DNA from: Heterotrichella gracilis
Lineage: Eukaryota > Sar > Xanthophyceae > Tribonematales > Xanthonemataceae
Direction of reading: 5' to 3'
Length of the DNA stretch: 64,000 nucleotides
Assembly (NCBI GenBank): GCA_032358255.1
Contig: JAULBX010026274.1
Span: 1 to 64,000 of the forward strand
In this document: in pieces, positions 29,334 through 64,000 of the stretch
Position numbering within the stretch: position 1 is the first letter of the stretch
Layout of the letters: each line of letters starts with the position of its first letter
Notes under the pieces: generated by a model
Database searches by the model: none
What the model was told of the DNA's origin: nothing
The model's input: the letters and a program-made list of their open reading frames with translations, nothing else
Made by a program: the position numbers and the translations under genes

Positions 29334-30540
29334 CGTCTGGCCAAACAGACCAAAAGGGTGACTTACCAAGCACTTTGGGTGTGTATTAAGGTACAATTTG
29401 GTGTGCAATCCAGACGCCTGCTCTTCCAATTGGGCAAGCAAAGCTTTACAGCAAAGAGCCAGGGCCTGAACCAACTGCCCAAGAGCATTGACCAAACTAC
29501 TGGGCACAATCCTAGTCCCGCTAACGTTTATGCGGCAAATGGGAGGACCCAGCTGCCTAAGGTTTATGTTACGTCCAATGGCAGTTGCAGAGGAAGCAAG
29601 GGCTGCCTGAGAGGGGTGTTGACAGGATGCATGGCGGGAAATTGACACGAGGTGCTCTGAAAGGGACTCGCGGCGACGTCATCGCAGAACAGCTTGTAAC
29701 CTCCACGCTAGTAGCACCCTCACCTTGCAAACACTTTTCTGCTCTTCCGAGGAGAATCAAGCAGTCCTGCCAGGCTTTCGACAGTATCCTGTTACAGATG
29801 GGCGTGTGTCGAAACCGAATGTTCAACCCTTGCGACATGCAGTGGCAGTGGAGCGATACAGCACACTCGAATACGCAACACAATAACGGTGGGTTTCCAG
29901 TAGTTGAAGTAAGCTTGGCAGGAGCTTGATAAATAAGCTTGGACAAGACCCGTTTTGCGGCAAAACTTTTGCCCAACCAACCCGAGCCTCAACTGCCTGC
30001 ACAGCAAAAACGACCTCTATTTTCCTGGAATTATTTGTAGCCAACAGCTTGTGGGCACAAGGTCCCTTGAGGTCATTTGCCAACGTTTGAAATGCAGGCA
30101 ACGGTTCTTGTCTGGGTACCGGACCCTCTACTGCGCAACTTGCGTACGCCAGTCAGTGTTTTTTGGTGGCATCATATATCTGATCAGAACCTGGTGGGGA
30201 GGGTATCTGTTACTGTGAGACTGCAAGAGCGACACCGCTTTGTACATCTTCTTATTGATACTGGGAACAATAACCGTACTACGATTGAGCTGTCAGTTGA
30301 GACGGCATGTTGAAATGCATGCATGCATATAGCTTCAACTCACAGTGAGCTTATCACCAACCTGAGTCAGATATTGCCTTAAACAACCGTTGCCATGATA
30401 TCTGGTTCTTGGAGGCGCAGGTGTGTGGCTTCACAACGCGTAAATAAGGTGTGCACTACTTAATTGCTGGCGCTTTGAGCCACAAAGCAAAGTGGGTATA
30501 CCGATCTGGTTTGCCCGACCTTCACAACAGCTTCACTGCG
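29334..30540. other. Divergent intergenic region between F-box/LRR and hydrolase genes
   Basis: Must hold both promoters. It may also hold an unrecognised first exon of the hydrolase gene, whose open frame at 30479-30574 has no ATG. Open frames here have no recognisable motif. Confidence 0.45.
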
Positions 30541-40969: not shown

Positions 40970-43900
40970 ATGGCGGAGTCTGGGTACAGCGTACAGTGGA
41001 CCGCATCGCTTGTCGGGGCAGCGCTGGTTGCTTCGGGGGTGGTGTGCTACTCAATCTGGCACCATCGGAAGCGAGAGCCTTCGGAAAGCTTCGATGACGG
41101 TGCGTTCCAAGCCATGTTAGCTCAACAGTTGTAGCCTTTACCCGCTCCCACGGCACGCACTTGCACGCAGGTGGCAAGGCCACTTGCGGGCAAACGCAAT
41201 TGCAACCCATGTAGTGAACGTTGCGAGCCCGCTCTGCCATGGAAGGTTGCCCTCATGAAAACCAGGCACTTGTGTGCACAGAATGATCATGAAGGTTCTC
41301 AATGTCCACGACACCACCCGTTCACCCGCCCTGTGTGCCTGGCGCAGGTACCGACGTGTACGACACCGCTGCCGGTTCCTTTTTCAAGAAGCGTGGCATC
41401 AGCGCCCCGGAGCGGGGCAATGAGGACAGCGCCAACTTGAACCCTTCAAATTCGCTGAGCGAGCCCTACAACAGCTGTCACAACGCCCTCACCAACAAAC
41501 TGACTCAGGTATGGGGCTGTGCATACCACAATTGCTCTAAAGGAAATTCCTGTGCCTTTGCTCCGGTGTCCCTCACCGGCGTGGGAGTGGGTAATGGCAA
41601 CGTAGGTGCACAGTCAGTTTCACAGAGTGATCCACGGCATGAACCTTGTATCAAAAGGGGTTCATACACACTATTGATAACTCCAAGCGTAGGGCGCGCA
41701 CAATGGCAGAGTTACAACTGTGCACACACCAACTCCAGTACTTGGTACCCTAAACAAGGGTTTGGGCCATAGTGCTCACAAAGCACCCACCCACCCACTG
41801 GCCCGCTGTAGCCGAATAAGAATTAGCTTACCCGCCGCGGCTTGAAAGACAATGTAGCTAAACCCTAGGCTGGTTGGTACCCTAAGCAAGGGTTTGGGCC
41901 CGCATGGCTGCAGCCAACCCTAGGCTGGGATGAGATCTGTCCCCAGTCTCTTTTCTGACAGCTTAACTACTGCAGGAGCTCACCAAAGTGACCAAGCAAC
42001 TGGGTTGGACTCAGGGGGTGCTCTGCCCAGCCGACATCAAGATCTCCAAGCGGCCCGATGGCAAGGACTGGCTGCTGGGTGAAGGGGCTTTTGGAAAGGT
42101 GGGTGCGGCTTGGAAGGAGTGGCTGCCAAGGTCATGATACCTTCCATAGCGACTTGTGGTCTACCATGGGCCATAAACCCTAAACTCTGAACCCTAGACA
42201 GTTGGACCTACAATTCTCCAGGTGTAGTCGGCTCCTTCTTGCAAACCCTAAACCATGAAAGTGCACACCCTAAACCCTAAAAGTGCAAGCAGTTATACCT
42301 GTCATTTCCCCACTGCGTTCGGCATCCCAAGTCCCAAACCTTGAGCAATTGAAACCTCCCCTTCCTCCAGGTGTACCGCGCCACGGTATACGGCGAAATG
42401 CCTGTGGCTGTCAAGGTCATGAACCCCTCCACAGCCACCGGCATCGACGCCATAGCGGTGCGCGAGATTGCCTTCCTGCGCAACCTGCAGAGCCCCAACA
42501 TCGTGCAGTTTTTGGGCGCAGCCATATGCGACAACGGGTCTCTGATGATGGTGACGGAGTTGATGGCGGGGGGTGACCTGCGCTCTGCGCTCAGCAGCGG
42601 GGTGGCTCTGTGGAAGAACAGGTGTGCAGAAGGGCGGAATCGGATTGTTTAGGGTGTAGGGTTTAGGATGACCTGTGCTCTGTGGTCAGCAGCGTGGTAG
42701 CCCTGTCAAAGTACAGGTGGGTGATGGATAGCATGTATACACGATTGCATACATGCGTAAATACATGCTTGCACAGGTCGGCACCTGGGAGGGCCCAGCG
42801 GCCTTTGGCATACCAAATCATATGTGTTTCCTTGCTGGAACGCATTTACGTAAATCAAGCAATATTTTGCTTCCTTGCTTTATTTTACAATATTCACTTC
42901 CTTGCTGCAGGGGTAACCGCATCGCCTTGGACATCGCCATGGGCCTCCACTTCCTGCACAACAGCCACATCATGTGAGTCACAGGGGTTGTTTTCTTGAC
43001 ACACTGCAGTTTCCCTGTGACCATACACATGCTTCAGCTATGCGCACTCCTTTTTGCAGCTCTTAACTCTGCTCATAGTATCCTTGTGACTGTAAAACCT
43101 GGTTGGGGTTTCAAAAGCTTAGTTCACTGTAGCTCTCAACTCTGCTCTCTGCTCATAGTATCATCGTGATTGTCAAGCTTGGTTGGTGTCTCACAAGCTT
43201 GGTTCACTGCCCAGCCACTTTGACCTCAAGCCCGCCAACGTGCTCCTGACCAAGACTCTGCAAGCCAAGATAGCGGACATTGGTCTGGCCAAGGTGGCGC
43301 AGCGCACGCAGGTGAGGGCTCCCTGCCCCAAATCATGCGTGTGTGATCTGTAAGGAAGGTTGTGGTGACTTGTGGACAATCAACTTATGCCATGCGAGCT
43401 TTTGACCTCTATGCCTCTGGCTGCAGATCATTGTGCCATGACCTGCACACATCTGGGCACCTTCACCTATATGGCCCCCTGAGGTACTGCAAGAGTCCAA
43501 AGTCAACTAATTTTACTTATGTTGTTGCAGATCACCGCGCATCTGGGCACCTTCTCCTACATGGCCCCGGAAATCCTGCAGGGGTCCAAAGTGGGCGCCA
43601 TGGTTGACATCTACAGCTTTGGGGTGCTGCTGTGGGAAATAGCAACAGGGGAGGTACCCCGGAGGAGCATGATGCGCGACATCGAGTAAGGCTCTTGCGC
43701 AATGCGCAAATCCCCCCGTGCATTGCATTTTAATCCCTGGGTTATTTTACTTATTTCTTGGATTCCTGTGTGCCCTGCAGGATCCCCAACTGCCCCAGGA
43801 CATCGATGACTTGGTGTCATTAATGTCAATATTGCTTCATCCCCAAGGATAAACCCCCGACCTTGGTTGAATATATGTTACTTACTTATTTTGCATCCCT

Positions 43901-46900
43901 GCAGGGTCCCCGACGACTGCCCCCAGGACGTCGTTGACCTGGTGACAGCCTGTATGTCCCAGGACCCCGCCGCGCGCCCCACTGCAGCGGAGTGCATGGA
44001 GACTATCAAGAGGCACACCACGCAGCCCCTGAAGCATGTACGGAGCATTGTACTCATGCAAACCAGTTAACTTGAAAGAATTCTGCAGCTGTGCCCGGCA
44101 AGTTTTAGTGTTTAGTTGATTGCATGCATCCCAGCAAATCAGCCAGATTAGCAGTCTGTCTTGCACTTGGCACTGCACTGCACAGCATTGGCAGCCAGTG
44201 CTCCACAAAACAGTCTAGTAAGCCTTCTGGTTGTGCCATGCATCTGACTAAATAGTTAATTGCCCCTCTGCAGGGTTTTGGAGAAGGCGCTGGCACAGGC
44301 CTGCTGATGAGGAGCTCCCTGGGGCAGTTCTCTGTCATTGGGCAAAACCCCTACACCCTAAACCCTAAAGCCTAATTATAAACCCTAAAATTGCAGGGTT
44401 TTGGAGAAGGCGCTGGCACAGGCTTGCTGAGGAGGAGCTCTCTGGGACAGTTCTCTGTGGGTGGGCAGAGGCCTGGCCTGTTGAAGACCCTCAAGGCGCA
44501 GCAGAACCGTGACCTGCTCCTTGCTAGCATGAAGCTCATAGACCACAAGACCAGACCGGTAAGGCGCCAGCGTGTGGTGAAAGAGGATTTTGTGGTGGTA
44601 GCGGTGTTGCTTGCGTTCATTAACAATCCGGACCGGGGCGCTGACTATGGGTAATACATGATAATCTCGTAGGCGCAGCTGATCCGTGACCAGCTCCTTG
44701 CCGACACGAAACCAAGAATGTCGAGACCATGCACACAGCCGCACTGACAGTTGCTTTCTTGGCATGCAGTGATCACCTTAAACGATGTATATTGTTTTAT
44801 CTCCTGTATGTATCTTCTCATCTGTTTCTCTATCTATTGGAATTAATCCCATTTGTTTGGCATGCAGAGCGAGGAGGGCCTGGTGCGGCGCCTGGGCGGC
44901 GACCGCCGCACCTCCCACCTCACCGAGGCGGTGTGCTCCAGCATGAGGGCCGACCCCGAGCTGGCTGGCCTCATGGCACCGCTGGATGCCCTCAGCGCCC
45001 AGCAGCTCAAGAGCAGCATATTCTCATACGTGGTGGCGGGGCCCCTGGCGTACACGGTGAGCGGTGGTGGAAGTGGCGCAATGGTGGGTTTTGCATGCAG
45101 ATGGCACTTGGGATGATCTTATGGTGTCCGTTCAGTGCAAACCCTAAACCCTCTTGGCCAACTCCACTTCCTTGACCAACGAGCTTGTTCACGGACAGGG
45201 TTTGTACATATTTATATACTTATTTATTCTTGATTTTGCGCTGGCCTAGGGCCCAGACATCCACCCGCTTGAGTATTAATTAATGCAAGTAAATAAACAA
45301 TGAGTATGAAGTAATTCAAGTAAATAAACAATGTTTGTTTTGCACTGGTGTAGGGCCCAGACATCCACCCCCTGGTGGCTGACGCTGTTGCGCGCTGCGG
45401 TCTGACTGTGCGCCACTTTGAGCTGGTGATGGCACACGTCATGGAGGTGCTGGGGAGCGTTGAAGTCCCAGAGGTAGGATTTTGGGTTTAGGGGGAAATT
45501 CCTAAACGTGTTCAATGGGGTTTTTAAAGGGGTTTGCTACTGGTTGAAGGTTGACTCAGCTGGTGCACGATTGAACGCTGCATGCACATCTGTTCCATTT
45601 GATATCCAACCGTATTGGTGAACCTGTAAGCATCCCTGGAAGATGGATCCTTAAGGTTACCACCTTGCCAGGTGGGTTGATGTGGAAAAGACGTATCTGC
45701 AGATTGTCTGCAATCAGCCTCGGCAATGGCACCAAACCCATAACCTTCCGCATCTCTGCTGGAGCGGGCTGGGAGGGTTTTCAGCGGCCCTAAAACCTGC
45801 AGACCTAAACCTCCAGCAGAGATTTCGAAGGTTCCGGGTTTTATGGCCTCTAAAAACCCTCCCAGGCTGCTGCACGTAGCAGGAGTGCTGAGGGATCTCA
45901 CGTTGGTGTGTGCCCACCTTGCAGGAGTTGATCGAGGAGGTCCTTGGCAATATGAACACCGTCCAGCACCACTTCTACAAGGCTCCCGCAAGCCCAAGCC
46001 CAAGCACCGCACCACCAGCCAGCCAGCCCCCACTCATGGATCTGGTATGGACACTGCGGCACATTATGCCTGAAAACCCTTGCACCAATGGTCAACCCTA
46101 AACCCTAAACCCTCAAACAGCCCACTCATGGATCTGGTATGGAAATTGCGGCACAGGGTTACAAGGTGGCAGGCATATGCATCTTGGTCACAGTATGCCG
46201 TCAAGGTGGTACCCTAAAACCCTAAACCATCAAATCCTAAATTATGCACCCCGAAACCCTAAATCAGCCACAGTGGCTTCCCTGAGGCCAGCCGCTATCT
46301 GGACACATTATGCCTGAAACCCTTGTGCCAGTGGTCGACCCTAAACCCTAAACATCAGACCCAAAAATAGTTAATGCGTGCCTGCTGCAGGTTGGCGGTT
46401 TCTCTGAGGCCAGCCGCATTCTGGATGCTGTGTATGACCTTGTGTGGGACGATCCCCTGCTGGGCCCCCTCATCAACAAGACACAGAGCGATCCTCGCAT
46501 GATCATGAAGCAGAAGGTGAGCATCCGATCATGCACTGATCAGACAAACAATCATGCCATTGGGGACCATGTAACATGATCACATCTGATTATATGCTGC
46601 AGCAAACTGCCATGCAGACTCAGTTGATGAGCTGGCTGGCTGTCGTCTAATCCGCCCAACTAAACACATCAACATGAGCACATCTGATCTACGACTGCAC
46701 CAAATGCTTTACAGACCCAATTCATGAGCTGGCTGTTTGGCAACCTATCATCCAACATGATCACATCTGATCTAAGCCTGCACCAAAATGTCTTGCAGAC
46801 TCAGTTCATGAGCTGGTTGTTTGGCAAGCCGAGTGAGTACAAGGGGTCGACCGTGGAGGCCGCTCACAAGCAGGCCATACTCACCAAGGGGCTCAACCGG

Positions 46901-49900
46901 CGCCACTTTGACGCATTCCTGGGCCACCTTGAGGCCACCCTACTGGTGTACAAGACACCAAAGGTATACCCTCCTTGAACCCTACAGCCCTGTAGCAAAC
47001 ATAGTTGTGGTACAGTAATCCCGGAGATAGATGTGGCATGGTGGTGGCCAACTGATACGCTTGATGGACCCTAAACCGTAAACCCTAATCCCCAAACCAC
47101 CCTGTGCAGGAGGCAGGGGACATGGTGGTGGCCAACCTATGTTTCGATTGATAACCCTAAACCCTAAACCCTAAACCACCCCGTGCAGGAGGCAGGGGAC
47201 ATGGTGCTTGCCAACCTGCGCCAGGCAATGCACGCCTTCCCCGGGGCCCGTGGCGGGCACAACATGATGCAGCGCGTGGGTGGCATGGCGGCAGCGGGGC
47301 GCATCATCGACCTCCTCTACCAGAAGATCTGGGATGACAAGGAGCTAGCTACCTTTTTCGAGGTGTCCATGTCCAAGAACCCGCACACCTTCATGGCAAT
47401 GAGGGTACGTTGACCATAAAAATAAACCCTAAACCCAATTTTGAGGTGTCCACGTCCAAGAACCCGCACGCCATGAGGGTATGCACAGTGCTGCATCGAA
47501 AACCTATACCCTACATCCACACACCTTTGTGGCCACGGCCTCCACTATTCCTGAATCTCTCACAGACCCCAGTAGCCATGCCGGTGTTTTGAAGCCGGTG
47601 TTATCTTGTGCTGTGGCGCAGACCGAGATCCTGGCCTATCTATTTGAGGGTCCGGGCAACTACCACGGGAAGGACATCATCCGCCTGCACGGGCCAATCA
47701 TCTCCTCAGCAAAGCTCAACCGCGACCACTTTGAGAGCTTCAAGGGACACCTGCACGAGGCCCTCAGGTATTACCCTAAACCAAAACCCTAAACCCTGAA
47801 CGCTGAGCCCTCAAGCCTAAACCACTACGAGCAATTCAAGGCCATGAGGCTCTGTGGTAATCCAACCCGATCTCTAAACTCTGATCAGGTCATGAACCAC
47901 TTTGAGCGCTCAAGGGCCACTTCCTTGTGGGATACTTCATCACATCCATTGCATATTTTAACATCTATAAAAGTACTATTAAAACTTCTACTTTTTGTGG
48001 TGCAGGGAGGCCAAGGTTGTGGAGGACATTGCAGCCACTGTGCTGGAGAACCTCTCCTCGATCTCCCACATGTTCCCCAAGGCCCCCGAGAGCATCCTGC
48101 ATGACCTGGGGGGCCTCATGCGGGCTGGCCGCATCATCGACACGCTCTACGACAAGGTATAAATATTGTTAAGATTTCAGTTTTGCCGTCCATGCGTTGA
48201 TGGCATTGCAAGGTGTGCATTATTATTCACATCACAGTTTTACTGTCCATGACGGAACCAGGGCAGGGTATGGGATGCAAAATGATTGCAAATGCAAAGT
48301 GCCTCTCGGAGGAAAAGCTTGCCTTCTGTATCCTATCTCCACCGGCAATGCCAACTCCGCAAAATCATGTTCCGCAAGGTCGCCTCCTGACTGCCCCTAA
48401 TTAGCACCAAAACACAAGTGGCCTAAATCAACCGTGTGCTGTGGCTCAGATCTGGCAGGATCCCACCATCAGCAGCAAGTTTGCAACTGCCATGGCCCAG
48501 TCTCCACACAAGTTCATGTCAATGCGGGTACGCAACACGACATGATCTTACCACATCGTTTGGCCTGAGAATTGTATGGCGCAACAGTGCACTGAGTTTG
48601 ACCAGGCGTGTTCATATATAAACCAGGAATATATATTAACACCCCTGGTTTGACTGAATGGTGTGCTGTTGCATGTGGCGCTCTGAAAATGAAAGTAGTT
48701 TGTAAATATGTCCTGGTCAGCAACTGCTCGTTGACGGTTTTGCTGCTAGATGCTGCAACTTGCACTGTCACCACTACTAGTGTTAGTGGCTAACATTGCT
48801 TGCAATGTGGCGCAGACTGAGCTGACTGGGTTCCTGTTTGAGGGATCTGCACCCAACACCGGCAGCGAAGGGCTCCTGCAGATGCACAAGAGGATCATCA
48901 AGCAGCAAGGACTGGACAGAGGCCACTACAGGACCTTCACCAAGTACCTGGAAACGGCAATGAGGTGCGGCACTTGCATTGCGGAGAAAGCATTGGCTTG
49001 CAGCAGAAAGTAGCCATGCATGGCAGTAAAATGCTTGCTGCAGTTACACTTCCCTGGAAAGGATGCAATCACCAATGGTGGCCAAACGCTATGCATTGCT
49101 GTCTATGTTAAACATGTTGCAACAGGAATGTGTTCATTGGTGCGTCCTTAATGTGTTTCTCTTTTTTCCTTCTTGAGACCTCAGAACTACTGTCCCATGT
49201 AAAACTCAGCCAGACATTGCTGTGACACAGCTGTGTGCGTCTCCTGTCCCCCATGTACATCAACAGTCCAGCATGTTTTCAACTCAGCCAGACGATGCCG
49301 TGACATTGCTGTGTGCCTCCTGCAGGGAGCACAAGGCCTCCGAGGGCGCCATGGCTGCTGTGCTCAAGAAGATCTCCATCCTGGAGACCATCTTCCCGGA
49401 GGTCAAGAAGCACGACCCTGGCCTGCAGATGCTCAAGAACAGCCCGGTGGGATCGAGGGTGATCGAGGAGCTGTACATCAAGATCTGGGAGGACGAGTCC
49501 CTGGTGGGGTTCTTCAAGGGTTCGGTGACGTCCAACCCAAGGAAGTTTTTGGCCATGCGGGTACGTGTGTAATATTGATAAAGTATGGGCAGGGGTACGT
49601 ATGCAATATATTATAATATGCGCAGGGGTGGTTTATGGCTTGTGTGGGAAGGGTCCAAAGCAGTTACTTTTACCTCCATTGCGTGTATGTGGTTTGCGAG
49701 TGGTATTACTCGTGTTACGTGTTACTTATAACAGGAAAAGTTGCTGATGGCACAAGCGATCAAGCTTAGACGGCGCTAGACCACCACCTTCAAGTCTGGA
49801 GATCACCTCTTGGCATCCAGCACCCGGCACAGTTCCCACCTAATCCATTGCTGCGTTGCACATTCAATACAGAAACCTAATGTGACCACCACCCTCTCTA

Positions 49901-52900
49901 TCACTTCAATTAGGGGACCATCTACACTTGGTGTGCCATCTATCAGATGATCATAGAGCATATATCAGACATGCATTGCCTAATCAGTCCAACGCGTCTG
50001 CAGACGGAGCTTTCCGGCTTCCTGTACGAAGGCCCCTCCGCCTACGCGGGCGCCAAGGATGTGATTCGCCTGCACCAGCCCATCATCAAGGCCCACGCCC
50101 TCAACCGCGACCACTTTGACTCCTTCGCCAGGCACCTGGAGGCCTGCTTGAGGTGGGTCAGGGTTTAGGGTTAGGGTTTAGGAGTTAGGGACCTGGCGGC
50201 CTGCTTGAGGTGGGTGGTGGTGCGCTAGCCACTACTGTTCAGAGCAGTGCAGGAACCAGGAACGCACCCAGTTGAGTGGTGAATACAACAGACAACAAAT
50301 TACGTGTATTAAGAGGCTACGCCGCCTGTCCATGAACAAGCGCTGGTTGAGCATTGAGTGGAGAATGCCAGTGTTCAGCGCTGCACCGTCATGCACTCTC
50401 TGCCTGGTGCCAGGCTTGACCCTTAATTGCAGTTGCGCAGTAATCGCATAGCTTAAATAGTACCAGTGTCCCTGACTTGTTTCAAATCCCACCGTCTGTG
50501 CAGGGATCACAAGGCAGAGATTGGGGAGCCAGCAATCGTCCAGGTGATGGAGCACGTGCGCAGGTACTGTTCTAGGGTTTAGGGTTTAATGTTTAGGGTT
50601 TAGGGTTTAGGGCTAGGCGGGTATGACGTGCAGATAATGCAGCACGTGCGCAGGTATGCCAGCACAGGCGTTATGTACTGGCAATCACATGATTTGGGAT
50701 CTCTTAGCAGTACCCATTGTTTGGCCATATGCATGTTGCAATCCAGGTTGGGGAAGCGAAGAGACCCTGCGCAGCTCAATGTATCACTAGAATGCATGCA
50801 ACTGCACGCTAACTGATTGCACACTCCCTTGCTGTGCAGCATTGAGCACATCTTCCCTGACCATCACTGACGTGCACGCACCATTGATTGATGCATTAAA
50901 TTGGTTGTGGAAAGTTGATGCAATTGACAATCACTGACATGCAACCATCTACTTGATGCAGCATTCCCTGAGACCTCTATCAACGGCAGCGTAGGCATAT
51001 GGCATGTTGCAATCCATAACCAGAAAACCAAGGGAGCCTGCGCAGCTCAATGATTACTCAATGTATTGCTGGAATGCATGCAATTGCAGTTAGTTGATCA
51101 CACACCCCCTTGCTGCGCAGCATCGAGCACATCTTCCCCGAGACCTCCAGCGACAGCAGCGTGGGTGGCATGATCCAGCGCCTGGGCGGCATGACTGCAG
51201 TGGGGCGCATCATCGACTGCCTGTACGACTTCATATGGGCGGATCCAAGCCTGGGCAAGCGCTTTGTGCGCACGCTGAGCGGCAACCCCCACAAGTTCAT
51301 GGCCATGCGGGTACGCGCGTGGTGATTCAGTGGCGCAAATTATATGTATACTACGCCTTTCTTTTGTGGGAATAATGAATGATCATATGAAATGAAGTTA
51401 CGGGTTGTTTACGACAATGGGGGTACGTAACACACACACGCGAGGACGCTGAGCTGGAACCCCACAAGTTCATGGCCCTGCAAGGACTTTCAGTCCACAA
51501 CTAAACCCTACATCCTCCATTGGTCAGTGAATTGTCCCTCTTCCGCATGTCAACCCACCTAAACTTAGGACCATAAGGGGTCAACCCATGTCAATGTCCA
51601 ATGCTAGGCAGCTATGGCTGTACAGGCAGCGCAGTGCAGAGCAGCGAACCTTTGAACCCTACACCCACCCTTGACCTGAAACGTAAACCTTAAACAAATG
51701 CCCCACCTTTGCAGACCGAGCTCACTGGCTTCCTCTTTGAGGGACCGGGGAGGTACTCTGGCGCACAGGACGTGATTGCCCTGCACATCCCCATCGTCAA
51801 GGCGCACGAGCTCACTCGGGACCACTACAGGCACTTTGTGACCCACCTGGACTCTGCGCTCAGGTACCTATGCTTTGCAACTCATGCACTGGGAGGGAAA
51901 GGCTGTTTTTAGGGTTTATTTTGTGACCCACCTGGACTCTGCGCTTAGGTATGCCACTCATGCCTTTGAAGGAAAAGGCTTTTTAGGGCCATGGGTCATG
52001 CTTTAGGGGCTTAGGGTGTAGGACTCGCTGTCATTTGAGCGTGGTTGCCCAACCATCTCCACCAATGCAGGGAGCAGCGTGCCTTGCAATGCCATCCTGG
52101 TGATCCTCAAAAACCCTAAATCCCAAATTATAAACCCTAAACTCCCCCACTGCAGGAAGCACGGCGTGCCCGGCGACGCCATCCTAGTCATCCTGGCCAA
52201 CATCGCCACCCTGGAGCACATCTTCCCGGAGCCCACCCCCGGCCAGGCCCTCAGAGCCTCCCGAACCAGCACCAATAGGGCAGCACCCACCACATCAAGC
52301 TCGGGGAGCAGCTCACCTCTCAACTCCCTTGAGCTTGAGGATACACCCACAGCTGTGGCTATGGCTGTGGCCAGCGCGGACCCTGGGTGCCCCTACCCCT
52401 TCAAGCCCACTCCGAATCCCCCGGAGGAGTTCCGGGGATTGGCGGCAGTGGAGGAGGCCCTGACATCGCCCGCTGCGCGCGCGCCCACCAGCATCACCTT
52501 GGCGCGCGGCATCGCGGAGCGCAACCCGTCCTACGTGATTGACTCCGTCGCATCCGGCCAGCTGGCGGCGGCCATCCAGGGCCATGTGCAGGTGCAGGAG
52601 CGTATTTATATTTTGTATATTTTATTTGTTTATCTATTTATTAATTTATTTTTAATTGATCTGTTTGTGTGTTTATGTGTTTATTTATTCATTTATTCAT
52701 CTAATTACTTCCATGCGCAGGTGCCTGGTAACCCAGGGATAGCCAGCGACGAGGCCTTCGAATTCAAATCAAACTCCCCCCCTGTACATACTGGCAGGAC
52801 GTTGGGCACAGCAATCAGTGCTGACCTGGCAAAGAAAAGGCCATCCAGCATGGAGGCCACCCGCGCCACGCAGCCGCCCATCCCCATGCGCTCACCGGGG

Positions 52901-53407
52901 ACCCAGGGAGCTGCGGCAGTCCTTGCGAAGGAGCTGGCGCCCACCGGCGCAGCGCCCGCCGCCGCCGCCGCCGCCGAGGCGGAAATCCCCAACCCGCGCC
53001 GCACAGCCGCCATTGTCGGGTCGCCGCCGCTCCGCCGCCCCGCCAAGAAGAGCATCAGCCTGGATGGCGGCTTGCCGAGGCTCGGCAGCCTGGAGCAAGC
53101 TGCTGCAACCGCCCTTCAGAAGGGCAGAGTGCCAGGGGTTGCAAAGGAGAACCCATACCCTGACCTGCCTGACCTCGGCTTTGAGTACTTCGCGGAGGAC
53201 CATCCCAAGGCCGTCTCCCCGGGGTCGCTGTCCACGGGGGGCAGCCGCCACGCCTCTCCCTTTGCCAAGCGGCTGTCGCTGGATGGGAGCTTTGCGCGGG
53301 AGGTGTGTTCCCCCTTGCTTGAAGCGGAGGGTGCCAAGGGGGTGGTTGCAGCAGCGGCCCACGCCAAGGATTCAGGGGAGGTCACTCTAGAGCAGAGTGG
53401 CTGGTAG
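40970..53407 (+). CDS. Membrane-anchored protein kinase with six tandem truncated-haemoglobin domains (26 exons, about 1546 aa)
   Basis: Exons: 40970-41099, 41348-41508, 41976-42098, 42371-42621, 42911-42973, 43215-43311, 43531-43685, 43905-44037, 44397-44558, 44868-45056, 45354-45473, 45925-46044, 46391-46516, 46799-46963, 47189-47404, 47622-47767, 48006-48156, 48450-48527, 48816-48964, 49326-49560, 50004-50152, 50504-50563, 51121-51310, 51715-51863, 52156-52591, 52721-53407. Residues 11-29 form one hydrophobic helix followed by HHRKR, a signal anchor leaving the rest cytosolic. The kinase spans ~126-365: GEGAFG (132-137), Lys153 in VAVKVM, Glu170, HFDLKPAN (Asp246), DIG for DFG (264-266), MAPE, IYSFGVLLWE; it looks TKL/Raf-like, non-RD. 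Six globin units follow (~426-1173), then a disordered 370-residue tail with two K/R-x-x-S-LDG motifs. A tandem paralogue lies 2.2 kb downstream. A haem-based sensor kinase is inferred; haem binding is untested. Confidence 0.9.
42664..42722 (+). repeat. Donor-side echo of kinase exon 4
   Basis: GATGACCTGTGCTCTGTGG...TACAGGTGGG repeats the end of exon 4 (GGTGACCTGCGCTCTGCG...GAACAGGTG) directly after a TGTAGGGTTTAGG linker. Confidence 0.85.
43421..43505 (+). repeat. Acceptor-side echo of kinase exon 7 (broken)
   Basis: Copies GCAGATCA...CATCTGGGCACCTTC..CTA.ATGGCCCC from 43528-43590 but contains a TGA in frame, so it cannot replace the exon. A similar echo of exon 8 lies at 43771-43825. Confidence 0.85.
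44270..44340 (+). repeat. Acceptor-side echo of exon 9 in gene 1
   Basis: GCAGGGTTTTGGAGAAGGCG and the next ~45 bases are repeated with few changes. The real exon starts at 44397, after a CCCTAAACCCTAAA linker. This copy is intact enough to act as an alternative acceptor. Confidence 0.88.
46590..46790 (+). repeat. Two acceptor-side echoes of exon 14 (globin unit 1, E-H part)
   Basis: CAGACTCAGTTGATGAGCTGG near 46616 and CAGACCCAATTCATGAGC near 46713 precede the true CAGACTCAGTTCATGAGC at 46796. The intervening ATGATCACATCTGAT sequence repeats as well. Confidence 0.88.
47100..47165 (+). repeat. Acceptor-side echo of exon 15
   Basis: TGTGCAGGAGGCAGGGGACA and the next 20 bases repeat the start of exon 15 (real acceptor at 47188). 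The two are separated by CCCTAAACCCTAAACC. A donor-side echo of the same exon is at 47440-47482. Confidence 0.88.
48596..48654. mobile_element. 45-bp palindromic mini-element with 7-bp target duplication (copy 1)
   Basis: A near-palindrome 48603-48647 (CAGGCGTGTT... / ...AACACCCCTG) is flanked by exact copies of GTTTGAC at 48596-48602 and 48648-48654. It lies in the intron between exons 18 and 19 of gene 1. It shares termini with the element at 54815-54868. Too short to code; must be moved in trans if mobile. Confidence 0.75.
52063..52112 (+). repeat. Acceptor-side echo of exon 25
   Basis: ATGCAGGGAGCAGCGTGCC...CCATCCTGGTGATCCTC mirrors the start of exon 25 (real acceptor at 52155), followed by CCCTAAA. 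Donor-side echoes of exon 24 and exon 23 lie near 51917-51965 and 51440-51485. Confidence 0.85.
52592..52720 (+). other. Stop-free, frame-preserving intron 25 of gene 1
   Basis: 129 bases (43 codons), GT-AG, AT-rich TTTATTTA-type sequence with no stop in the host frame. If retained it would add a very hydrophobic stretch (YILYILFVYLFINLF...) able to form a membrane helix inside the tail. AT content and splice consensus favour an intron; retention is only a possibility. Confidence 0.7.
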
Positions 53408-54510: not shown

Positions 54511-54599
54511 CTTAGCCAATGCCAGCATTGAATGAGTTTCAGAATCAAAGTTGCAGTTGCTCTGCTTCTGAAACTCATTCAATGCTGGCATTGGCTAAG
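54511..54599. repeat. Perfect 34-bp inverted repeat
   Basis: Arms 54511-54544 and 54566-54599 (CTTAGCCAATGCCAGC... / ...GCTGGCATTGGCTAAG) are exact reverse complements with a 21-base loop. Perfect pairing over 34 bases implies recent origin or active maintenance. Confidence 0.95.
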
Positions 54600-54807
54600 A
54601 CCTGTCCTTGACTGGGCCAGCCGTTTTGGCTGGTGTGGTGTCCTGGTGCGAGCCAGTGGCCCCATAACTACGCCTCTGTGCTTTCCCTTTCTTTCTTCAG
54701 AAAAGAATCCTTCTTTCAATGCTGCATTGAGTTCGCAGGTCTCCCACGCTAGCGGTAGCTACCCCCCCCAAGCAACACCACCCTCCTCCTCCCCAAGTGG
54801 TGATCAC

Positions 54808-55561: not shown

Positions 55562-58500
55562 ATGGGGTACTCACAGCAGACGTTGATAACAGCGGGTATC
55601 TCTGCAACTGCGCTGGTGGCGTCTTCTGCGGCTGTGTATTATGGCTGGCGCAGGCTGCAACGCATGGAGCGCGAGCTTTTGAGCCATCGTTCACTCCCAG
55701 CCGATGATGAAGGTGCAGGCATAACGGTGCACGTCAAGTCTGTGCTAGGCCTTGCGAGTCGGTATATATGCGCGTGAGCTGTTGGGTTCGCAGTGTGTTT
55801 GCCTGCCAATACGTGCTGTAGCGTGGCAGTGGTGTCGCAGTGGCGGAACAGCCTGGCTGTCATGCGGGGGACGCTCTCGACCCGTTGCCAGGCCTGGTAC
55901 AGCAAGTTGCCACAGCTGCGCCCCATATGCTGCCCCTATGTGTGTCCTGTCTGATCAAGTTGCCCCGCCTTGTGACAATTCGCGCCGCTGTGCACGCACG
56001 CTGACTACCCCTGCCATTTGATGGGTGGTGGGGCCAGTGCATGTCCATATAGTGGTGGTCAGCAATTCTGTGCCCATACAGACGAACAAAGGCAGACCGG
56101 TGGCTCTTGCCACCGATCACAAGGCGGCCAGAGTGAACGCTCGGTAGCTTCCGCCTCACAAGGCCAAGCGCATACCAAAGCCCCGGGGATAGACGTCATG
56201 ACTGATATGCTGCAGCAGGTGGGGGAAGTGTTGGCTTTTGTGACGACTGCTTGAGCTGTGAGTGTCCTATGAGCAGCCTCAGGATAGCAGTAGCAATAGT
56301 ATATCATAGCATAGCAACTATCTTTTCTGGCGTGGATAGCATAGCAACTACCAACTCTGGTGTCTTGCAATCACCCAAGCAACGCATCACACTTGGTGAC
56401 TGCAAGGAACCAGAGTAGGTAGTGCTAGCAGCACCTGCATACCGACATCTGCATACCGACACTCTGCATAGCCTGCACCCATCTAAAACTGGCTGTGCCT
56501 GACAAGCAGTCTGTTGGGTGTGCTATTGAAGGCATACCATGGTAACCCCAAACCCTAAGCCCTAAACCCTAATCCTTGTGCCTGCAGGAGCTGTCAAAGG
56601 TGACGCAGCAGCTCGGGTGGGCCCAGGGGGTGCTTTCCCCCGCCGACATCCAAATAGCGCACCGGCCCAACGGCAAAGAGTGGCTCCTGGGTGAAGGGGC
56701 TTTTGGAAAGGTGCGTGCGGCTTGGAATACTTGGAAGGGGTGGCTGTCAAGGTCATGGAATTTTCCATGGCAACTTGTGGTCTACCATGGGCCTCTCAGA
56801 AACCCTAACCCTGAACCCTTAACAGTTGGACCTGCCGTTCTCCAGCTGTAGTCGGCGTTCCTTGCAAAACCCTAAACCCCAAACCCTAAACGGTTGAAAC
56901 CTTCCCTGATGGCAAGGAGTGGCTCCTGGGTGGAGAGGCTTTTGGAAAGGTGGGGACCCAGACTACTGCTGACAGTGTGTTGGGGCTGCTGGTGCCCTCT
57001 AGGACACCCTAGAGGGTGTCTGCCCACCTGGCCAGGGCTTGCTAAGGGTGTACCCAGACTATTGCTGACAGCGCATTGGGGCTGCTGGTGCTCTTCGAGG
57101 GTAGGGTATTTGCCCACCTGGCAGGGCTTTGCTAAGGGTGTACCCAAACACTTGACCAAGTGCACAGATGTGGCATTGCCTAAGGCCACACGCAGAAATA
57201 AACGTGGTTGGGGTGCCCCCCCCCGTCCGAATTTTCGAAAAATGCATGCAAACGATCGGATTTTTGGGGGTCGAAAAAAGCAACACTAGAGGCCCCTAAA
57301 TGCTCGGGAGGCAATTGAAATGGGTCAAGCACCTCGAAACGAATCCAAAACCACCCTCAGAAGCAAAATACATCCCCGGAGGAAAGCAAATGGTGGTGGG
57401 ATTGGTATTATAGTCTGGGGATTAGACTTGGGGATGGGGATTGGCATCTGGGGATTTGGGGTGTTTGAGATTTAAATCTGGTTGTGAGTGGTGCAGGAAA
57501 TCTGGATATCAAAATCCCCAATTTTTTATGATGGGACAGGAACATCATGAGTTTAAGGGGTGGGGAGCAGTCTGGGCACTGAGAGAGTCACTTCGGGACT
57601 TGTTACACCCCCAAGGAGACCCAAAATGACCCTGGATGGGCCTTGTAAACATCCGACCAAATACAGTAAACCGATCAAATTTCAGCCCCCCCCGTGGTCC
57701 CCACCGGCCCTACCGGCACCCCAACCACGTTTGTTTCTGCGTGTGGCCTGACTGTACAGATGTGGCACTGCTCTTGCCGATGCACTGGAGATGCAAGAGT
57801 ACTTGCTGCCACACAACGTGGACAAAACCCCTACACTCACCACCTGGTGAAGCTCGCACGTGCTTCACCCTACACCCTACACCCTACACCCAGACACCAC
57901 CCGCTGCAGCGCACACCCAGCTGCTGTGCCCAGGTGTACCTTGCAAACCCTAACCCCAAACCCTAATCAGTTAAGGTGTACCTTGCAACCCCTAACCCCA
58001 AACCCTATCTGTTAAACCTTTCCCTTGCCCAGGTGTACCGCGCCACGGTGTACGGCGAGATGCCGGCAGCTGTCAAGGTCATGAACCCCTCAACCTCAAC
58101 CGGCATCGACGCGACAGCGGTGCGCGAGATCGCATTCCTGCGCAACCTTCAGAGCCCCAACGTGGTCCAGTTCATAGGCGCGGCCATCGGCGATGGCGGC
58201 ACCCTCATGATTGTCACTGAGCTCATGGCGGGGGGTGACCTGCGCTCAGCCATCACAGCGGGGGTGGCGCTGTGGAAGAACAGGTACGTGGAGCGATTCA
58301 TTGATTGTGTGTGAAATAGGGTTTAGGGTTCACACACAGTGGAGGCAAAAACCCTGTTTGAGGGATATTCAACTATACTGACTCAGTACTACGTTACTAT
58401 TATTAGTACACCCCTGATGTAATACTCCCTCCCGTCCACTGGATGGTGGCTGTGGTCATGAGGCGCCCAGTTAATCATGATTGGCAGTCACTGCGTCACC

Positions 58501-61500
58501 CACAGCGCCTCATTGTGAGGCAGGCATTGGGTTCAAGACCCGGGCGGCCCAATGAGTCTGAAAAGCAACTGTGGCAACATGCAGGGGACCAAGGATTCTA
58601 CTGGACGTGGCCATGGGGCTCCACTTCCTCCACACAAGGCGCATCATGTGAGTCACAGATGGCATTTCTCAGTGTAGGGTTTAGGGTGTAGAGTTTAGGG
58701 TTTAGGGTTGCAATGCAGTTTTTGAATGCGGCTATCCTGTGACCTGTACACCCGGTGCAGCTCTGCTCACTCGTTTTTGGCAACTCCCAACTCTGCGCAT
58801 ACTATCCGTGTGACTGTAAAACATGGTTGGTGTCTCACAAAATTGGTGTCTCGCTGCCCAGCCACTTTGACCTCAAGCCCGCCAACGTGCTCCTGACCAA
58901 GACCCTGGCAGCCAAGATAGCGGACATCGGCCTGGCCAAGGTCTCGAACAAGACACAGGTGGGTGTGTTTAACACCTGCACATGCATACACTGACTGGTT
59001 TGATGGGGATTAGGGAGAACAGGGATATAGCATTGTCAAAATTGGATATTTTGGGGCTGTTTGGGCCAGGGGGCGCGCCTGCATATGGGTGGCAAACCAC
59101 ACATCTAGCATGCTCAACACTGCACATACGCTCACCTGTACTATTTGCTTCAGATCACTGCTGCGCTAAATTCCTAATCCCTCTCGCCGGGGAGGCAATA
59201 CTCTTCTCAAACCTGAACCTAAAACACACACCTTGCGTACTCAACCCACAATGCTGAGTTACACACCTTCCTTTCTACCTGCACTAGGCCACGGCCTGCG
59301 GGTGGACGTGAAAGTTGACATGTACAGCTGAATATGTACAGCGCAGCCATGGAGGGGACACTACCCTACACCCTGAACCCTAAACCACACTCCTGGCATG
59401 CGCAACACTGCCCCCTTACCCACTGCCCACTTACACGCGTCCCTACCTGCCCTAGGTCACGGCCGCCCTGGGCACCTTTGCCTACATGGCTCCCGAGATC
59501 CTGCAAGGCCTGCGGGTGGACGTTAAAGTGGACATGTACAGCTTTGGGGTGGTGATGTGGGAGGTGATCACTGGGGAGGTACCACAGAGGGGCATGATGC
59601 GGGAGCTCAGGTGGGTGACAATGGCATGCTGCATGCACCTGTATACAGCAAGGGGTGTACCGTACAGGTTGCTTTTTAACCACTTGGGAGGTCATGATTG
59701 GGGAGGTGCCACAGAGGGGCATGGTGCAGGAGGTGAGGTGGGTGCCAGCCATTGGCATGCACCTGTATGCCGTGATCGGCGGTTATCGTATACAATAAGT
59801 ATAAAGTTGTTTTAATAAAAGGTATTTGAGGTTACCTTTTATTACCCTGTACTCATGATTGTCCCCGGGGAGTGCCCCCCCGAGCTGGCCCAGCTGCCAT
59901 ATCTCCAATCCCCACATAAAGTATCCATCCCCAATGGCTCATATATGACAAAAATCTCGCAGGGTCCCCGGGGAGTGCCCCCCCGAGCTGGCCCAACTGG
60001 TGAACGCGCTCATGTCCCAGGATCCCACAGCCAGGCCCTCTGCATCCCAGTGCATGGAGGCCCTCAAGCCCTTCATCCCCGGGACCAACAAAAAAGTCAC
60101 GGTGGCGGACGAGGCGGGGGCGCTGGCGGCCGCCAACCGCAACTCCAGCCACCCTGGTGGGCGCAGCCTGGGGACCGACACACGCAAGCTGGAGGTGGTG
60201 AAGTTCAAGGAGCGCGCCAAGTCCATGGCGCCGCACAACCGGCACAAGGTGCGTTCCCCAATACACCTTAAACCCTAACCGTAAACCCTAAAGCCTTCAA
60301 GGACCTTGGCCAGTCCATGATGCCTCACGACCGGCACAAGGTGGTGCGTTCCGGAGTATAACCAAAACCCTGAATCCTATACCCTTCATGTCTGCGCCAA
60401 GTCCATGATGCCTGTAGACCGGCACGAGGTGCGCTCCCGAGTAAACCCTAAACCCTAAGCGTAAACCTTCATGTCCGCGCGAAGTCCGTGATGCCGGCGA
60501 CCGGCACAAGGTGCGCTCTTGATTCAACCCTATACTTGAACCCTAAACCCTTCAAGGGACGTGTCTAGTCCTTGATACCTTCAATACCGGCACAAGGTAT
60601 TTGACCCCGCTCTCCTCCTCCACAGTCGCAGTCGACGCTCGGCTTGAAGGAGCGCATGGGCGGGGAGTTCAGGATCTACCTGCTGGCGGAGGCTGTGTTC
60701 CAGAGCATTTCTGCTGACCCTGAGTTCACCCCCTTGCTGGACAGCCTGGATGCCAGGCAGCTAGGCAGGGTGAAGATCGATGCCGCCTCGTTCATCTTTG
60801 ACGGGCCGCATGCGTTCAAGGTACAGTGGCTGCACTCCCATGTGCTCCAATCCTTAACCACTAAACCCTAAACCCTAAACAGTCGCTTCTTTGATCGTTG
60901 ATGGGCCCCATGCGTTCAAGGTATAGTGGCGGCACTCCCATGTGGAATCCCATGGCGGTGCTCACACATGTGTGCTACAACCCCAAAACCCTAATCCCCC
61001 CAATGCACGGCATGGTGAAGATCGATGCCGCCTCATTCATCTTGGACGGGCCCCATGCCTTCAAGGTACAGTGGCTGTACCCCCATGTGCTCCAACCCTG
61101 AACCACTAAACCCTAAACCCTAAACCCTAAACAGTCGCTGCATTCATCTGTGATGGGCCCCATGCGTTCAAGGTATAGTGGCGGCACTTCCAAGTGCTCA
61201 AAAAGCTAGGGCAATGGCACTTGTGCAACCCCATGGCAGTGCTGAAGCATGCATGCAAACGCCATGCCAATGCCAATGAACATGTGCTCAAGCGTGCTAA
61301 GCAGCTGCTTACTGCCGTGCCAGTGTTAAATGTGTGTGCTAAGCGTGTGCGCAATCCCATGGGCAGTACTGAGCCATGTGGGCAAAGGGGGTGTGCAATC
61401 CCATGGGCGCCACTCAGCCATATGTGCAACAAACCTTTTCTGAAGCATGTGTGCCATGGGTGCAGGGAGGCAACGCCCTGGAGATCGTGGATGGCCTGGT

Positions 61501-64000
61501 GCAGCGCTATGGCCTCACATCCCGCCACTACAACGAGCTCGTGGGGCACCTCATCGGCGCACTGCTGGACGCAAAGATAGCAGATGTGCGTGTCTAGGGT
61601 CTAGGGGCTCAGGGTTTTGCTGGATGCAAAGACAGCAGATGTGCGTAGGGTATTGCTGCACGCCCACTTGCCGCTGTCGGCCCCTGATTACCATCACATG
61701 GACGCCAGACGACCATGCATGATGCAATCCTCCCATGACCACCGCTGGACTGCGCATCAGCCAGAGCACGAGTTGGCTGCAGGAGGGCGCGTACTGATGG
61801 ACTTGGTAGTGAAAAACGCCAGTAGCACGAAAAGGTGGGCGCTGATTCGTGTGTGCACCACTCCCGCAGGACCTGGTTGAGGAGGCGATAAACAACATGG
61901 TGGCTGTGGAGCACTTGTTCCCGGATGTGGGCGATATGTTCCCCTCTGCCTCCAGGCCCAGCTCGTCTGGAAGGATCCCAACCGCGATGCAGCAGGTAAA
62001 CCTTAAACCCTAACCAGTTCGGTAAACCTTGCAACCCTCAGCATGTCACCTGAAACAACTCACGCATGCTACCCTAGGCTCTTGGCTTCTCTACGGCCAG
62101 CCGCATCATGGGCACAACATGTATAAACACCCTTAAACCCTAAACCCTAAACCCTAAACCAGCCCACGCCATGCCCTGCTGCAGGTCGGTGGTTTTTCTG
62201 AGGCCAGCCGCATCATGGACACCATGTATGACTTTGTGTGGGAGGACCCAGTGCTTGCGCCGTTCTTCACAAAGTCAAAGAGCGACCCCCGGGCCTTCAT
62301 GCGCCAAAAGGTAGGCATGGCCCATGTGGGGGGAGGGGGGAGAAAATGGGGAGAAAAAGTTAAAGGGGAGGGGAGGCGCACGCAGGCTCTTGAGATACGG
62401 TCAGGCGCTCAACTGCTGCAGACCAAGGCCACGTCATGTGTGTTTGAGGCCCCTAAACCCTAAACCCTAAACTGAAAACCTCGTTCAACTGCTGCAGACC
62501 GAAATCACGTCGTGGGTGTTTGAGGGGCCCACTGCAGAGGCCACCGCCCGCATGCAGGCGGCGCATGTGCAGCCAGTCAGGCGGGGGCTCAATCGGGGCC
62601 ACTACACTGCCTTTGAAAAGTGCCTGGAGGCCGCACTGGGCAAGCACAAGTGCTCGCAGGTGGGGGGTTCAAAAGGGCAGCTGGAGCTAAGCAGGGGAAC
62701 TGTGGTTATATGACAGCAACATGCGCAACAGTTGAGAGCACTCCCTCCTACCCTCCATGTTGGTCTGGCAGCCCTCCTGGGTATCCAGTCCTTTACAAAG
62801 TAATACTCTTTATCCCCACCACCATCTGCTTGCCACCTAGCGCCCACCACCACCACCTGACCCCCCCCCACCCCCCACCCCCCCCCCACCCACACCCACA
62901 CCCACACTACCAACACACCACCACCGCCACCCGCCCACCACCACCAACCCCCCACACAGGAGGTCACCCAGGCACTCCTGGGCAACCTGCGCAAGTGCAT
63001 GGCCCATTTCCCGGAGGCCCAGCAGGCACAGGAGTCAGTGGTAGCGCAGCTGGGCGGCCTGGCTGCTGTGGGGCGCATCATCGACAAGCTGTACGAGCGC
63101 ATATGGGCGGACCGCCAGCTGGCGGGTTTCTTCCAGAGCTCCATGACCTCCTCCCCGCACAAGTTCATGGCAATGCGGGTAAGTTAATAAATTAAAAATT
63201 GGAAAAATCTATGCGGCCTGCTGGTAGGTGCTTGTGTAAGGCTGGTTCATAACTGTGGGTGGGTTGGGTTAGATTACCATTTTTGTGCTGCTGCTTTGTC
63301 ACCTTTTCCTCAATAACAACATTCCTGGTATACAAATTGTTGGAAAATACTGTAGTTCTTTGGTTCTAGATGATAGCGCTGCATTCATCAGATGCATGGA
63401 TGATCCGTGCATCCAGAGCACGACCCAGCATTGGCAACGCATTGCGGGTAAGCGTCTGTCAATATGCGGTCCTGAAAAGCATCATCTCTGTGTGTGCAGA
63501 CTGCCTTCATGAGCTATGTGTTTGAAGGGCCCCATGCCCACAAGGGGGAGGATGTTGTCAAGCTGCACGCACCCATTGTTGCCCAGCACAAGCTCACAAG
63601 GGACCACTTCGACCTCTTCAGGAACCACTTCATCCAAGCTATGAGGTACGCTGCCCTAAACCCTAAACCCTAAACCATTGTGCTTTGCTGTTTGCACCAG
63701 TGGCAGCAAGTCAAAATCTTAGGAGGTGCCGGCACCGTGTATCTGCACCAAGGCTCTCCACAATATTCTCCCTTCAACAACCGCAATCATATGCATGCAG
63801 CTCCTTATTGCCACGCTGCGGATGAACAAAACCGCCACCCATTTTGGCAACAGCACGTGTCAGTTGTGAGATTCAGTAATGGTGGATCCTGACCACGTAA
63901 AGCGTATGCACGCCCTAAGCAAAACCTTTTGAAGATAAAATGCATTTCTTTGCAGGGAGTTTTCTGTGCCCCAGAGCGTGGTGGATGAAGCTGTGAAGAA
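55562..64000 (+). CDS. Second membrane-anchored kinase / truncated-globin protein (16 exons seen, runs off the window)
   Basis: Exons: 55562-55712, 56082-56218, 56588-56710, 58033-58283, 58585-58647, 58862-58958, 59456-59610, 59963-60248, 60626-60820, 61466-61585, 61870-61995, 62185-62310, 62498-62659, 62960-63178, 63500-63645, 63956-end. Exons 3-7 have exactly the lengths of those in gene 1 (123, 251, 63, 97, 155). Residues 7-27 form a membrane helix followed by WRRLQRMER. Kinase: GEGAFG, Lys152, HFDLKPAN (Asp245), DIG, YMAPEILQG, MYSFGVVMWE. Globins: a degenerate unit (422-526), then Tyr583/His633 and Tyr709/His760 units with FF at CD1, and the start of another. Exon 8 corresponds to gene 1 exons 8 plus 9, so one intron was gained or lost. 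Exon 2 is supported only by frame and splice sites. Function as for gene 1, an inferred haem-sensing kinase. Confidence 0.88.
56341..56427. repeat. Imperfect hairpin in intron 2 of gene 2
   Basis: CAACTACCAACTCTGGTGTC / CCAGAGTAGGTAGTGCTAG arms with TTGCAATCACCCAAG pairing to CTTGGTGACTGCAA. About 40-base arms with several mismatches. Confidence 0.7.
56900..57160 (+). repeat. Exon 3 echo followed by a tandem duplication
   Basis: 56905-56955 copies the end of exon 3 (AAGGAGTGGCTCCTGGGTG...TTTTGGAAAGGTG). It is followed by two copies of a roughly 95-base unit (ACCCAGACTA.TGCTGACAG... to GCTAAGGGTGTACCCA) at about 56957 and 57051. Confidence 0.87.
57183..57749. mobile_element. Non-autonomous element with 35-bp terminal inverted repeats in intron 3 of gene 2
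   Basis: 57183-57217 and 57715-57749 are reverse complements with one mismatch (AGGCCACACGCAGAAA...GGTTGGGGTGCC / GGCACCCCAACC...GCGTGTGGCCT). A 14-of-15 direct repeat, ACAGATGTGGCATTG / ACAGATGTGGCACTG, lies just outside at 57164-57178 and 57756-57770. The interior (G-runs, CCGAATTTTCGAAAAATGC) is unlike the surrounding intron and has no long open frame. This fits a MITE-like cut-and-paste derivative; superfamily unknown. Confidence 0.68.
60290..60600 (+). repeat. Fourfold echo of gene 2 exon 8 donor junction
   Basis: Units near 60305, 60395, 60475 and 60560 each repeat the CAAGTCCATG...GACCGGCACAAGGTGCG exon end plus donor, separated by CCCTAAACCCTAA-type linkers. The real exon ends at 60248. 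Confidence 0.9.
60885..61185 (+). repeat. Three donor-side echoes of gene 2 exon 9
   Basis: GGGCCCCATGCGTTCAAGGTA recurs near 60903 and 61153. A longer copy at 61012-61075 covers the last ~50 bases (AGATCGATGCCGCCTCATTC) and donor. CCCTAAACCCTAAACCC separates them. Confidence 0.9.
62060..62160 (+). repeat. Exon 12 acceptor-side echo plus (CCCTAAA)4 run
   Basis: TCTCTACGGCCAGCCGCATCATGGGCAC (split here as CCAGCCGCATCATGG) echoes the exon 12 start at 62185. It is followed by a telomere-like run at 62129-62160. A similar echo of exon 13 lies at 62413-62455. Confidence 0.85.

Follow-up and report, generated by a model that had tools for sequence, protein, structure and literature searches.

A 64,000-nucleotide stretch of the Heterotrichella gracilis genome (GenBank assembly GCA_032358255.1, contig JAULBX010026274.1, positions 1 to 64,000 of the forward strand), hereafter the window, was found to carry a long gene that joins a protein kinase domain to a tandem array of six truncated (2/2) haemoglobins. 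The product is best read as a membrane-anchored, TKL-like kinase which, with its six group-1 2/2 haemoglobins, would be a haem-based sensor kinase and one of at least nine such fusions, and we put the probability of this reading at about 0.55. Sensing of oxygen (O2), nitric oxide (NO), carbon monoxide (CO) or redox state is plausible for such a protein. The original prediction for this region had held that continuous exon phases link a membrane helix, a kinase domain and six globin-like units. This was confirmed in a hand-built gene model, in which all 25 introns (129-557 nucleotides (nt), median 292) are of the GT-AG type and all phases are consistent, giving a single stop-free frame of 4641 nt. 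From the N- to the C-terminus, the protein comprises a hydrophobic segment, the kinase domain (residues 130-360), a linker, six globin units (residues 426-1202) and a Pro/Ala/Ser-rich tail; the stop codon lies at 53405-53407. The features of the gene are as follows.

40970..53407, forward strand: whole gene, 26 exons, coding for the kinase-globin fusion protein of 1546 amino acids (aa); hand-made gene model.
41000..41056, forward strand: residues 11-29, predicted to form a single membrane helix, ahead of Trp-His-His-Arg-Lys-Arg (WHHRKR); Kyte-Doolittle analysis.
42072..44004, forward strand: protein kinase domain, residues 130-360, TKL-like, with HFD for HRD and DIG for DFG; PF00069 and PF07714.
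44005..44558, forward strand: linker joining kinase and array, formed by the last part of exon 8 together with exon 9; open frame, exon 9 being in phase 0 on both sides.
44868..46032, forward strand: globin unit 1, predicted to bind no haem, B10 Tyr and F8 His both missing; PF01152, 32.4 bits.
46033..47257, forward strand: globin unit 2, with B10 Tyr, F8 His, E10 Gln and E11 Lys; PF01152, 22.1 bits.
47258..48084, forward strand: globin unit 3, with B10 Tyr, F8 His, E10 Met and E11 Arg; PF01152, 27.4 bits.
48085..49416, forward strand: globin unit 4, with B10 Tyr, F8 His, E10 Met and E11 Arg; no PF01152 match when taken singly, 43% identical to unit 6.
49417..51157, forward strand: globin unit 5, with B10 Tyr, F8 His, E10 Met and E11 Arg; PF01152, 18.3 bits singly.
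51158..52243, forward strand: globin unit 6, with B10 Tyr, F8 His, E10 Met and E11 Arg; PF01152, 18.8 bits singly.
52244..53404, forward strand: C-terminal tail, Pro/Ala/Ser-rich, with two basic Ser motifs (KKSISLDGG and KRLSLDGS); translation.

A Pfam scan of the spliced protein, the check proposed with the original prediction, matched PF00069 (6.2e-52, residues 130-359), PF07714 (8.2e-49) and PF01152 (Bac_globin; 1e-25, 90.7 bits), the last in five stretches at a lax threshold of E <= 1. The same scan gave no reductase domain on the protein and no family in the C-terminal tail. When nine single open frames were scanned, the kinase only was recognised and no globin frame matched alone, because introns split each unit; for the same reason, a PF01152 search of the genome of origin missed the window gene and returned five exon matches at four loci. 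As had been claimed, both B10 Tyr and F8 His are retained in five of the six units; unit 1 has Cys and Val at these places. The EGPGxYxG turn also attributed to five units is literal in units 3 and 6 and variant in the others (e.g. EGPSAYAG, GKPSEYKG). Compared with the Protein Data Bank (PDB), a six-unit profile matched Chlamydomonas reinhardtii THB1 best (4xdi, 9.4e-22), followed by cyanoglobins and THB11, and more weakly a Geobacillus chain (0.0021) and a group III chain (0.012). Lack of Trp at G8 distinguishes group 1 from groups 2 or 3, and Trp is absent from the column assigned to G8 in all six units. Since THB1, cyanoglobins and THB11 are the best matches, the units were placed among the group-1 globins: by the PF01152 match of the whole protein, the pocket residues of units 2-6 and the nearest solved relatives, they would be group-1 2/2 haemoglobins, with a putative 2/2 fold and, in units 2-6, putative haem binding.

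The kinase domain keeps the beta3 Lys, the HRD Asp and the DFG Asp, and these three catalytic residues are present in all nine kinases of the family described below. The HRD arginine is replaced by Phe in 9/9 and the DFG motif reads D(I/V/L)G; in one model (locus C413) the second loop glycine is Ala. Among PDB matches an EGFR chain ranks first, CTR1 and MLK4 occupy ranks 2-4 and Csk rank 5, so that a TKL type is likely but not proven: CTR1 and MLK4 are among the best relatives although the EGFR chain leads. As for the N-terminus, the 19-residue Kyte-Doolittle mean exceeds 1.6 solely in windows starting at residues 8, 11 and 12, and its maximum of 1.76 marks a moderately hydrophobic segment. 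A segment resembling this anchor was found in the first modelled exon of a second gene, C376b, and hydrophobic frames starting with ATG lie upstream at C277 and C150; as such frames occurred at all five loci scanned, some of them are due to chance. The protein of the window gene is presumably held in a membrane, and the positive residues that follow the helix point to a cytosolic kinase.

The gene model was controlled with our own spliced protein-to-DNA aligner. A profile that included the window gene recovered 24/25 introns, the missing one being the tail intron, which lies outside the profile. A second profile, built from the C376b kinase and the globin units of other loci and thus holding zero residues from the window gene, scored 2449 on the region, 19 times the best of four controls (reverse strand, 114; two other stretches of the window, 84 and 129; shuffled sequence, 67). 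It agreed with 23/25 introns, missing the tail intron and the one before linker exon 9. This control is limited in two ways: introns of the window gene supplied the splice-site weights, and the paralogues that went into the profile owed their own models to an earlier profile drawn from the window gene.

The introns show two further peculiarities. Telomere-type CCCTAAA/TTTAGGG units occur in 13 of the 25 (41509-52155 and elsewhere), and over the whole window the two orientations number 60 and 42, versus 1-5 and 1-6 in five Markov simulations. By eye, some introns contain what look like incomplete repeats of the first part of the exon that follows, as if exon starts had been duplicated (at about 43425-43500, 43779-43822, 44275-44340 and 45250-45275). 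Downstream of the gene, at about 54515-54600, a near-perfect inverted repeat with arms of ~30 bases, also seen by eye, may be a small hairpin element.

Analysis of the distribution of related genes covered 68.5 Mb of genome on 903 contigs. A tblastn search with the window array returned a tandem copy downstream (C376b) and globin exons on C277, C150, C749, C141, C161 and C556, to which the PF01152 genome search added C272 and C306; a kinase search located kinases on several of these globin-bearing contigs. Exon maps from tblastn placed a kinase and then globins on one strand in C376b, C277, C150, C749 and C272. A second genome search with the globins of the short genes yielded C106, C413 and C427, with one globin each. 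According to the spliced models, the window gene, C376b and C277 carry six globins, C150 and C749 two, and C272, C106, C413 and C427 one. The kinase lies 5' of the globins on a shared strand, and Pfam cut-offs are passed for both kinase and globin, at all nine loci. This number is a lower bound, 17 other regions standing outside the count; no kinase match was found beside the globins of C161, C141, C556 and C306 in the 20, 10, 10 and 10 kb examined, respectively. Near the C277 gene, and on the opposite strand to it, kinase exons of the same type were observed (L020, C277:215828-218237, forward strand). The eight paralogous loci strengthen the proposal that kinase and 2/2-globin array are fused in one protein, which is probably anchored in a membrane. 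The nearest of them begins inside the window.

55562..64000, forward strand: second kinase-globin gene, C376b, with the anchor-like segment, the kinase and the first globins of its array of six; tblastn exon map and spliced model.

C376b starts at about 55562 and runs beyond the end of the window to about C376:67439; its product matches Pkinase (4e-49) and Bac_globin (2.7e-27).

Comparison of the haem pocket separated the three long genes, that is, the six-globin loci (window gene, C376b and C277), from the short genes with one or two globins. In unit 1 of the long genes both haem residues are lost, B10 being Cys, Phe or Val and F8 being Val in 3/3. Unit 2 has Gln-E10/Lys-E11 in 3/3, and units 3-6 combine Met-E10/Arg-E11 with B10 Tyr and F8 His in 12/12. 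Among the short-gene globins, Lys-E10 is found in five of eight, as in Chlamydomonas THB1, and the THB1 pair Lys-E10 and Gln-E11 is complete in both globins of C749, in C272 and in the first of C150; the second C150 globin has Lys-E10 and a modelling gap at E11. The C427 globin has Gln at both positions. The 12 units 3-6 share a mean identity of 44%. Of their 125 columns only 13 never vary, and B10 Tyr, E10 Met, E11 Arg and F8 His belong to these. That the pocket columns are among the few invariant ones despite this identity level suggests that the pocket of units 3-6 is under constraint.

A globin tree of 28 rows, from which C106, C413 and C427 were left out, united the 18 long-array units in one group (96/100). 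Within it, unit 1 (100/98) and unit 2 (100/99) grouped by position and unit 5 did so less surely (91/76). Intron positions were also informative. A phase-0 intron follows E11 in 23/23 units other than unit 1, where its counterpart lies at the E-F turn (3/3). Near the G-H turn, another phase-0 intron is shared by 14/14 globins, namely those of the short genes together with the first two units of each long gene; in units 3-6 a phase-2 intron lies about ten residues before that place in 11/12, unit 4 of C376b being modelled otherwise. Further introns occur in units 4 and 5 of the window gene and in unit 5 of C376b. Taken together, tree and introns point to an origin of units 3-6 by tandem duplication of a single unit, and at least units 1 and 2, and probably unit 5, would be older than the long-gene copies.

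A number of observations weigh against a single, haem-sensing fusion protein or against parts of this reading. Taken singly, three of the six units (1 to 3) exceed the PF01152 cut-off of 21 bits, units 5 and 6 stay just under it and unit 4 goes unmatched. With the threshold at E <= 0.01, only three globin stretches are recognised by Pfam in C376b and two in C277, so that the figure of six units in these genes rests on our own alignment; in the paralogue models, moreover, neither linkers nor N-termini are reliable. In the tree, unit 4 lacked support as a group (42/0) and units 3 and 6 did not group by position. Two short-gene globins have an altered haem residue: that of C106 (Asn/Gln at E10/E11) has Tyr at F8, and that of C413 (Tyr/Lys at E10/E11) has Leu at B10. 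Haem in units 2-6, gating of the kinase, the ligand and the cytosolic orientation are, moreover, what we infer from sequence. Doubt also attaches to the joint between kinase and globins. Linker exon 9 (44397-44558) is a weak point, its exact splicing being uncertain: the second model splices differently here, placing three other introns around it and not recovering the exon as such. The end of exon 8 and the start of exon 10 are both phase 0, hence the reading frame continues whether exon 9 is included or not. Partial exon copies in introns and telomere-like repeats could have misled a hand-made model, but a gene-model artefact or a pseudogene is extremely unlikely and was rejected on the control with the second profile (2449 versus 67-129), given that the second model shares 23/25 introns with the first at 19 times the best control, that the joined frame is free of stops and that the catalytic residues and the haem residues of units 2-6 are intact. 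Very unlikely, too, is the explanation that a kinase gene and an adjacent gene for the globin array were copied together as a block. In its favour, an in-frame ATG stands just before the first globin exon at four of nine loci (the window gene, in the frame SHLFGMQ, C749, C413 and C427), and the gaps between the last exon of the kinase domain and the next exon with globin residues at C150, C749, C106 and C413 (938, 901, 871 and 1436 nt) have room for a gene boundary; inside those of C749, C106 and C413 the models place small exons of doubtful status. Yet no in-frame ATG lies between the first modelled globin-bearing exon and the stop that precedes it in C376b, C277, C150, C272 and C106 (5/9), and the gap is intron-sized in C376b (383 nt), C272 (323), C277 (306, up to the linker exon) and C427 (196, up to a small modelled exon); lack of the ATG at five loci and intron-sized gaps make separate globin genes unlikely. 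When the frame of exon 8 in the window gene is read onward, the first stop comes 10 codons later, inside the intron, and the identical order and strand at 9/9 loci likewise speak against two genes. Fusion of kinase and globins is thus well supported at the sequence level, and both would be carried by a single transcript.

If the protein is fused, its globins could nonetheless serve other ends than sensing. They may act as membrane-tethered NO dioxygenases or as an O2/NO buffer, merely localising or protecting the kinase, a role that we regard as possible without being probable. The algal group-1 globin THB1, which among solved structures comes nearest to the units, figures in the excerpt of PMC4620153 consulted as an NO dioxygenase receiving its electrons from nitrate reductase, and five haem sites per chain suit capacity as well as signalling. 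However, the pocket of units 3-6 is unlike that of THB1 in 12/12 cases, the chain bears no reductase domain according to Pfam, the unit devoid of haem residues is kept in all three long genes, and the modelled count was put at one or two globins at 5/9 loci, while four have one only. Alternatively, the globin fold could be a scaffold or a protein-docking repeat in which haem is not the signal. Loss of both haem residues from unit 1, the substitutions in C106 and C413 and a globin copy number ranging from 1 to 6 agree with such a function, which we consider unlikely because B10 Tyr, E10, E11 and F8 His are invariant across 12 diverged units, a conservation needless for a bare scaffold.

Under the preferred reading of a haem-based sensor kinase, the globins may be built-in detectors of gas or redox state. 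Units 2-6 would carry haem and respond to NO, O2 or redox potential by a change of state; unit 1, haem-less and adjoining the kinase, would relay this change as a coupler; and the kinase, which has no RD arginine, would be switched by contact with unit 1 and not by the usual loop phosphorylation. A more specific version, offered here tentatively, is that the six-globin kinases are redox-gated rheostats in which four tandem haems, together with unit 2, would report redox state or NO/O2 balance stepwise. Met-E10, in place of the Lys-E10 of THB1 and of most short genes, would, provided that it binds ferrous haem only, close the pocket of each unit when reduced and open it when oxidised, and the graded signal would reach the membrane kinase through the haem-less unit 1. 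Methionine ligation in units 3-6 is possible by analogy: an engineered THB1 K(E10)M variant is reported in which Met ligates ferrous haem only, and, from work on THB1 variants at E10, PMC7082302 describes a structure favouring bis-coordination.

Within one genome, related kinases with one to six globins offer ready-made steps for comparison: THB1-like forms with one globin or two, and three forms with six, where the haem residues are gone from one unit and the distal pocket is changed in four. Gating of a eukaryotic kinase by 2/2 globins, and the effect of array length, are testable with this family. To our knowledge, the detection of NO and O2 in green algae and plants is largely an open matter, and few direct haem sensor kinases of eukaryotic type exist. 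If the rheostat proposal were true, the six-globin genes would represent a eukaryotic multi-haem sensor kinase built through stepwise globin duplication.

Elsewhere in the window, three frames were noted by eye. At 20172-21392, a frame of 406 aa with Ala/Gln/Lys-rich repeats resembles LEA-type proteins; on the reverse strand, the frame at 1394-2206 looks like the last part of a reverse transcriptase from a retroelement, and that at 28929-29678 like an F-box protein.

Searches for related proteins were made in a collection of 5.8 billion sequences; they need shared five-residue words and limit length, so that absence is not proven by them. Residues 425-1220 of the window protein gave no match at E <= 0.001 among the 7989 candidates that shared most words. 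The C150 globins gave 10 matches, none with a Ser/Thr kinase domain. For the C150 kinase 426 sequences passed, the best 120 of which include Chlorella, Trebouxia, Myrmecia, Apatococcus and other green algae; PF01152 is absent from these 120 in precomputed annotation and from the 10 that were rescanned with Pfam. The green algae among these matches, like THB1 among the solved globins, suggest a green-algal affinity of the genome. Our own unit profile, at E <= 1, matched all 10 globin proteins and 0/120 of the same best 120 of 426 kinases. These searches with the window array, the C150 globins and the C150 kinase thus returned no fused relative and no kinase with a six-globin array. The kind of protein is nevertheless already known, since PMC7082302, in the portion consulted, mentions that 2/2 haemoglobin domains fused to a protein kinase, and chains with several such domains, had been found, and cites four papers for them, including Vinogradov 2011 and Hade 2017. 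The original claim that no eukaryotic kinase with a multi-globin array was known is therefore uncontradicted, but the finding is less new than it implied. The multidomain truncated haemoglobins mentioned there resemble the window protein, in which six 2/2 units and a kinase stand in one frame. In the parts of that literature consulted, no description was found of a nine-gene family, of a six-globin array on a kinase or of a positional pocket pattern.

Of the known systems, THB1 to THB12 of C. reinhardtii share the globin group of the window units. According to the portions of the sources consulted, they comprise single-domain, extended (the extension having no assigned function), four-domain and split forms, and no kinase is tied to them there. 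THB1 has Lys-E10 and Gln-E11, whereas units 3-6 have Met-E10 and Arg-E11. In bacterial globin-coupled sensors, a single N-terminal 3/3 sensor globin precedes a C-terminal output. Assignment of the window protein to canonical sensors of this type was rejected: its globins match PF01152, number six and lie C-terminal to the kinase. As far as the excerpts consulted go, such sensors, for example the histidine kinase AfGcHK (PMC8697598), share with it a globin sensor joined to a kinase output, but they are built on 3/3 globins (PMC7082302), where the window protein has several 2/2 globins C-terminal to a eukaryotic-type kinase. A metagenomic protein of 822 aa (P0001) carries seven tandem PF01152 stretches in one chain and no kinase domain. 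Among the ten matches of the C150 globins are P0003-P0010, presumably bacterial, which bear PF01152 globins on CheW, CheA or MCP domains and may be 2/2-globin chemotaxis sensors; they have chemotaxis domains and, unlike the window protein, no Ser/Thr kinase domain. The occurrence of PF01152 globins on CheW, CheA and MCP domains makes a sensor use of this globin type credible.

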